From the NCBI GenBank assembly GCA_021816865.1, contig JAKAWX010000002.1, positions 228,039-292,038 of the forward strand: a stretch of DNA of 64,000 nt, read 5' to 3'. Position 1 is the first letter of the stretch. The number at the start of each line of letters is the position of its first letter. Source of the DNA: Thermoplasmata archaeon. GTDB taxonomy: Archaea; Thermoplasmatota; Thermoplasmata; Lutacidiplasmatales; UBA184. Shown here piece after piece: positions 38,250 through 39,676 of the stretch. Both the position numbers and the translations under genes were made by a program. The notes under the pieces were generated by a model, which made no database searches, was not told where the DNA came from, and saw nothing but the letters and a program-made list of their open reading frames with translations.

Positions 38250-38831
38250 GTGGTAACGTACGTCGCTCTCCTTCGAGCGGTCAACGTCGGAGGCATCCGG
38301 ATCACCATGGACGACCTCCGGGCGCTTGCCGAGAGCCTGGGGTACGGGAACGTGCGGTCGCTCTTACAGACCGGGAATCTCGTGTTCGACGGCGAGCGGG
38401 GACGGCCGGCCGCGCTGGAACGTCGGCTCGCGACAGTCACCGGACGCCGTCTGGGGATCGAGACGGAATTCTTCGTCCGGACGTCGTCGGAGTGGGCCAC
38501 CGCGATCGAAGCGAATCCGCTCACCGATGCGGCCGTCCGGGATCCGAGCCACCTGGTGGTCGTCTTCCTCCAGGAGAGTCCTTCCGGCGAGGCGGTGAGA
38601 GCGCTGCGATCGGCGATTGCCGGACCCGAGATTGCCGAGGTCATCGGCCGGCAGGCCTACATCTCCTACCCGGAAGGCATCGGCAAATCCGGGCTCACGC
38701 TCTCGCGGATCGAACGCGCGCTCGGCACTCCGGGAACCGGCCGGAACTGGAACACGGTACGGCGCATCGGGGCCGTCGCAACGGGACGGGCGAACTCCTC
38801 CTCAAGGCCGACTCGTCCGGCCCGGAGCTAG
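38250..38831 (+). CDS. DUF1697 family protein
   Basis: YVALLRAVNVGGIRITMDDLRALAESLGYGNVRSLLQTGNLVF is diagnostic of DUF1697. Confidence 0.9.
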   Translation: MVTYVALLRAVNVGGIRITMDDLRALAESLGYGNVRSLLQTGNLVFDGERGRPAALERRLATVTGRRLGIETEFFVRTSSEWATAIEANPLTDAAVRDPSHLVVVFLQESPSGEAVRALRSAIAGPEIAEVIGRQAYISYPEGIGKSGLTLSRIERALGTPGTGRNWNTVRRIGAVATGRANSSSRPTRPARS

Positions 38832-38892
38832 GCCCGGGGTCGGTGGAGGGGGCCGCGAAAGAGTTTTTGGGCCGGTTCGGCCTGGCGGCGTT

Positions 38893-39006
38893 GTGTCCGG
38901 ACCAGCCGTGGCGTGCGCCTGCTGTGACTGCGGCTCATGCTGCAAGTGTTGCGCGTGCTGCTCGGTCGACGAAGCCTGCTGCACGAGCTGCCCGGCTCCG
39001 GCCTAG
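38893..39006 (+). CDS. Metallothionein-like Cys-rich micro-protein (37 aa, 13 Cys)
   Basis: GTG 38893: (M)SGPAVACACCDCGSCCKCCACCSVDEACCTSCPAPA, stop TAG 39004-39006. AT-rich GAGTTTTTGG about 26 nt upstream (38861-38870). Confidence 0.6.
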   Translation: MSGPAVACACCDCGSCCKCCACCSVDEACCTSCPAPA

Positions 39007-39118
39007 CTCCCCGAGGGTCGGCCGGGCCGTGGGATGCCCCACACCGGGCCCCGCGTCGAATTCGATGTGAAGCCGGCCCGACGGATGTATGAGAAGGGCG
39101 CTCGCCGTCCGGGTTCTC

Positions 39119-39676
39119 ATGTCCGTCGCGTACCCGACCCCCGGGGGAGCCTACCCAGCCGTCCGGAATCGACCGCCCTCAGCCGGCACGGCCGAATCGC
39201 TCGTGCTAGTGGCACTCGTCCTCCAGGTGATCGGCGCCGCGGTGCTGATCATCGGCCTGTCGATCGCGCTCGGCGTATCGGTGGTCACTCCGTTCAACTA
39301 CTCCTGGGTGGTCGCGATCGTCGCTGTCGTCATCGGCGGTATCGCCCTCCTGTTCCTGTACCTCGCCTACGAGTACTCCTACAGCCGCATCAAGGCCGGG
39401 GAGTACGAGGCCGCCCAGACGGCGACCTTGCTGATCGGCATCCTGTCGCTCTTCGTCGGGATCGTCCCGGGGATACTCTACATCGTGGGCTACGTGAAGC
39501 TCGGCGACGCCGTGCGGGAGCAGCGGTCTATGCTCGCTCCTTCCCCGGCCGGGTCCACGGCCGGGACCCTTGCGTCGGGCGCCGGGACACAGGTCGCGTG
39601 CCGCGGATGCGGCCGGGTCTACCTCGTCGGGCAGTTCCCGTTCTGCCCCAATTGCGGCCAGAAGATCGGCGCTTGA
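39119..39676 (+). CDS. Multi-TM membrane protein with C-terminal zinc ribbon
   Basis: Three to four hydrophobic helices then VACRGCGRVYLVGQFPFCPNCGQKIGA. Confidence 0.7.
   Translation: MSVAYPTPGGAYPAVRNRPPSAGTAESLVLVALVLQVIGAAVLIIGLSIALGVSVVTPFNYSWVVAIVAVVIGGIALLFLYLAYEYSYSRIKAGEYEAAQTATLLIGILSLFVGIVPGILYIVGYVKLGDAVREQRSMLAPSPAGSTAGTLASGAGTQVACRGCGRVYLVGQFPFCPNCGQKIGA

Follow-up and report, generated by a model that had tools for sequence, protein, structure and literature searches.

The 64-kb stretch of DNA analysed here (the window) carries a gene for a 37-aa protein with 13 cysteines which, judged from its conservation among relatives, is real and under purifying selection. We consider its product, with a probability of roughly three in four, to be a single-gene, lineage-specific archaeal metallothionein (MT)-like protein that lies outside the described MT families.

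The 13-Cys gene and its reading frame

The coding sequence occupies 38893..39006 of the forward strand, begins with GTG and ends with TAG, and is supported by its translation, conserved homologues and purifying selection. It is translated as VSGPAVACACCDCGSCCKCCACCSVDEACCTSCPAPA*, in which 35% of the residues are Cys, while His and aromatic residues are entirely missing; the earlier note, which had described a microprotein of 37 aa with 13 Cys and no aromatics, was correct in this respect. A short leader is followed by a core of 26–27 residues containing the 13 conserved Cys, which corresponds in the window to CACCDCGSCCKCCACCSVDEACCTSC at 38914..38991 (+ strand, delimited by the alignment A1). 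The GTG at 38893 is present in the closest relative, G066, where the alternative GTG at 38908 is absent. The earlier note had also placed the gene inside a longer ORF, 38617..39006. This frame does exist; however, it is an artefact, since it overlaps the end of the DUF1697 gene (38250..38831) in a different frame and is interrupted in several relatives by a stop codon shortly before the start of the 13-Cys gene.

The Cys density of 38893..39006 is far outside chance. The pattern CCxCCxCC matched only once in the window, at this gene, and was found in none of 100 dinucleotide-shuffled windows. The next Cys-richest stop-free 37-codon stretch in the window contains 6 Cys, and the maximum for such stretches in 24 Markov-simulated windows (order 1, 2, and 5) was 7.

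Conservation and selection

The spacing C-x-CC-x-C-x(2,3)-CC-x-CC-x-CC-x5-CC-x2-C is kept in the core, and all 13 Cys were retained in 54 of the 56 loci. No substitution of any of the 13 Cys or of the Ala in CCACC occurs in A1, built from 21 homologues recovered by plain protein search. A larger set of 51 sequences was picked by a Cys regex, so the invariance of the 13 Cys in that set is partly circular, and 21/21 and 54/56 are the less biased figures. TGC and TGT codons occur side by side in each of the Cys columns (519:144 in the 51 sequences), and pS was 0.53 versus a pN of 0.12 in 25 independent pairs. Thus, the Cys codons proved to be preserved among relatives, a point on which the earlier note had staked its reading. 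Comparison of the window with G066 revealed six synonymous and two nonsynonymous differences in the core, and the intergenic DNA flanking the gene has diverged between the two. Between the Cys residues, positions are free to vary, the exceptions being the near-fixed Ala of CCACC and the site separating the second CC from the third, where the residue is mostly basic; the leader is variable as well, in contrast to the core. Such conservation of Cys along with variation of the intervening residues would be predicted for a protein whose function resides in its Cys side chains. Degraded copies were also encountered: L413 (G069:C65), the sole copy in its genome, has kept 10 of the 13 Cys and has no nearby ATG or GTG start, while L325 (G070:C46) has lost at least three Cys in a genome that also carries an intact copy.

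These data bear directly on the reading that the 13-Cys frame arose by chance in low-complexity sequence. Such an origin might be suspected from the very short ORF lying within a longer spurious frame and from its negative codon-usage score, although a low score follows from the general rarity of Cys codons. The conservation of Cys, the synonymous drift among relatives and the outcome of the shuffling and Markov simulations refute this reading, which we consider practically excluded.

Distribution of the homologues

When 60 related genomes were searched at the protein level, 20 genomes of the host genus besides that of the window were found to carry homologues; a weak match in G040 (L022) does not have the Cys pattern and was discarded as a chance hit. 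A profile search extended this to 36 of the 78 genomes from the host genus and 54 of the 103 from the host family, representing five of its seven genera, while no homologue was detected outside the family in samples of 400 genomes of the class and 390 of the phylum. Since the gene is present in only 18 of the 36 near-complete genomes of the family, it is non-essential. Scanning of genome contigs for related loci with A1 yielded 590 pattern stretches, none of which was confirmed by tblastn, probably because a Cys-rich query of only 37 aa offers too little length and complexity. With a looser DNA pattern applied to genome and viral contigs, almost all of the matches listed were simple repeats, and the true members that a regex identified among the matches listed were two named loci in the Thermoplasmata MAGs JOPF201 and JOPF065. 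These MAGs belong to a tropical-peat set containing 56 genomes of the order UBA184 (PMC10250450), which has been described as Lutacidiplasmatales (PMC9287336). The host family, an uncultured group of soil archaea, probably belongs to this order too. Genes of this kind can escape annotation because they are tiny and resemble low-complexity sequence.

Promoter and gene neighbourhood

The AT content of the regions upstream of the homologues (n = 52) peaks at −35..−26, where it reaches 0.42–0.46 versus about 0.30, and control genes from the same genomes (n = 188) have a peak of 0.36–0.41 at the same position. Because the peak matches that of ordinary genes, it is plausible, as far as sequence can tell, that the 13-Cys gene has its own promoter and a near-leaderless mRNA. 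The AT-box that the earlier note had assigned to a leaderless transcript, GAGTTTTTGG at 38861..38870 (+ strand), stood up in part: its placement about 26 nt before the GTG agrees with the AT peak of the group, but the box itself is only a weak TATA-like candidate, consisting of a T5 run without a TATA step (TTTTTG also occurs in G066). Neither a conserved motif beyond the AT peak nor a shared operator or metal regulator was found upstream of the 13-Cys homologues.

The gene is flanked in the window by the DUF1697 gene and a gene for a membrane protein (39089..39676) with a C-terminal zinc ribbon recognized by inspection, which had no match in Pfam and has homologues in 32 of the 78 genomes of the host genus. 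This neighbourhood is common to G066 only. As DUF1697 and the zinc-ribbon gene are likewise not adjacent in other species, relocation of the 13-Cys gene cannot be claimed from synteny. In the genera g28 (L311, L313, L314, and L316) and g29 (L312 and L321), GTP cyclohydrolase II is directly 5′ of the 13-Cys gene, which is followed in g28 by MsrB on the same strand. Several g1 species have an OB-fold gene 5′ of it, and thermosome or DnaK genes adjoin other homologues (all three assigned by inspection). At L306 and L045 (in G077 and G065), the adjoining gene is convergent and was judged by inspection to be IscA-like; its product has a CCGGGGG insert and, in addition, a Cys-rich tail (GGCGSCGSSSEKGGGCGCG). 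Metal genes, be they for regulators, transporters or other products, do not recur beside the 13-Cys gene and the neighbours differ between species; consequently, the gene is most likely monocistronic and the metal that its product would bind cannot be read from its context.

A second class of Cys-rich microproteins

Genomes of the host genus that lack the 13-Cys gene yielded other Cys-rich ORFs, which are the first genes of arsenic operons (L386–L409, e.g., L388, L389, L394, and L403). Their products are hypervariable, 23–42 aa long, and contain runs of up to nine Cys. The promoter of these operons is conserved (...CTTATGA-n-CACTTCA-N4-TTGAAGTG) and located about 12 nt before the ATG of the microprotein. 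Of the 78 genomes of the genus, 20 contain the operator palindrome ACTTCA-N4-TTGAAGTG, with 24 matches at 22 sites altogether, while the reversed pattern used as a control gave none. By hand count, a Cys-rich ORF of 23–42 aa lies 3′ of the operator at 15 of the 22 sites, and an ArsM-like gene at three. Further downstream, the operons encode a low-molecular-weight phosphatase/arsenate-reductase-like protein (PF01451), which scores under the NCBIfam ArsC cut-offs, and a major intrinsic protein channel. The one methyltransferase tested passed the NCBIfam cut-off for arsenite methyltransferase (311.8 vs. 263). Beside the operator, 5′ of the operon, there is a divergent gene for an HxlR-family regulator with an N-terminal (CC..)CPCPP motif (L388, L394, L395, and others), which could possibly be an arsenic sensor of a non-ArsR family. 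A 2025 paper states that the ars operon had yielded no gene for sequestration inside the cell (PMC12093948), and these microproteins are candidates for such a role.

Like the 13-Cys protein, the ars-operon microproteins are Cys-rich, with Cys runs and CC pairs, similarly short (23–42 aa) and found in the same organisms. They are, however, hypervariable, have long Cys runs and are bound to a fixed operon and operator, whereas the 13-Cys family is conserved in spacing, stands alone and lacks that operator; the genome of the window, G000, contains no ACTTCA-N4-TTGAAGTG site at all. Their position at the head of ars operons supports a metal(loid)-binding role of the 13-Cys protein by analogy only.

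Comparison with known systems and possible functions

The 13-Cys protein has the traits of the metallothionein class, namely, a length of 37 aa, about one third Cys arranged as CC and CxC, conserved spacing and no aromatics, and the MT-like composition pointed out earlier holds with the further absence of His. That it shares no obvious family was also borne out, as no relatives of the family were found in Pfam, NCBIfam, PHROGs or PDB. Bacterial MTs (SmtA/BmtA, Metallothio_Pro PF02069), which bind Zn/Cd in thiolate clusters, are likewise small, Cys-rich and prokaryotic. However, they have spaced Cys and His and a zinc-finger fold, whereas the 13-Cys protein concentrates its 13 Cys in a 26-residue core, contains no His in the window and gave no confident fold in a low-information model; none of the 21 members matched Pfam, PF02069 included, even at E 10. 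The alpha domain of vertebrate MTs shares the CC-x-CC and CxC spacings, the lack of aromatics and the single small chain, but the vertebrate signature, K-x(1,2)-CC-x-CC-P-x(2)-C, is absent from the window protein, which reads K-CC-A-CC-S-V. A PDB profile search with the family gave no match, vertebrate MT included, and the likeness is presumably convergent. Archaeal CPxCG zinc-finger microproteins are tiny Cys proteins as well, but these have a CPxCG pair and four Cys, while the 13-Cys protein has 13 Cys and no such pair.

The retention of Cys number and spacing while other residues vary, along with the lack of His and aromatics, suggests that the protein binds metal in metal-thiolate clusters and plays an MT-like role. 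In the reducing cytosol, its flexible chain would wrap soft metals, such as Cu(I), Zn(II), Cd(II) and possibly As(III), and, if known MTs with a comparable number of Cys are a guide, one chain might hold in the order of four divalent ions or more Cu(I). In this way the protein may buffer or detoxify soft metals. AlphaFold2 did not predict a stable fold for the apo protein (mean pLDDT 54.5, pTM 0.20, from a three-row alignment of low information), which is compatible with metal-dependent folding, although as weak evidence. The MT-like reading has to be reconciled with the inconsistent neighbourhood devoid of metal genes, the absence of an upstream motif, the lack of the gene in half of the near-complete genomes and the degraded copy in G069.

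An alternative function as a thiol/redox or Fe–S/zinc donor, where the Cys would act as a store of sulfhydryl groups or metal for repair and cofactor assembly rather than for detoxification, is suggested by the homologues adjoining MsrB and GTP cyclohydrolase II (g28), the IscA-like gene (G077 and G065), DnaK or thermosome. None of these associations extends beyond a single genus or a handful of species, which fits inherited gene order, and the neighbours in the window are of another kind (DUF1697 and the zinc-ribbon membrane protein), thus we regard this function as improbable. Even less credit can be given to a RiPP precursor or secreted disulfide-rich peptide. Despite the small size, the Cys-dense core and the variable N-terminal leader, no signal peptide was apparent by inspection, and no adjacent modification enzyme, be it a maturase or radical SAM, nor an export gene recurs in the about 50 loci surveyed, radical SAM being found near one homologue only. 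Moreover, conservation of the core but not of the leader is the opposite of what is usual for RiPP precursors.

The MT-like reading also has a narrower form, in which the protein is specialized for a single metal, for example as a Cu(I) thionein or an As(III) binder. The former would serve the haem-copper oxidases that Lutacidiplasmatales possess with blue copper proteins (PMC9287336), and the latter is brought to mind by the second class of microproteins, which head ars operons in the host genus. Nevertheless, there is no copper gene neighbourhood around the 13-Cys gene and the ars operator is missing from the genome of the window, which is 83% complete; such specialization therefore seems rather doubtful, at perhaps one chance in four.

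Metallothioneins have been described from bacteria and eukaryotes, and the term "archaeal metallothionein" was not found in the literature searched. For Haloferax mediterranei, a copper survey reports that no metallothionein was found (PMC9240420). The 13-Cys gene thus encodes a real, undescribed, family-restricted archaeal microprotein, which is most likely metallothionein-like and should not be assigned to any known MT family. The family is well delimited, is under measurable selection and is small enough to be synthesized. We give even odds to the broader view that this lineage owns unrelated Cys-rich microproteins, a stand-alone 13-Cys metallothionein and hypervariable poly-Cys arsenite sequesterers heading ars operons under HxlR-type regulation. 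If this is true, it would mean that archaea have metallothioneins and that a sequestration gene exists inside an ars operon.
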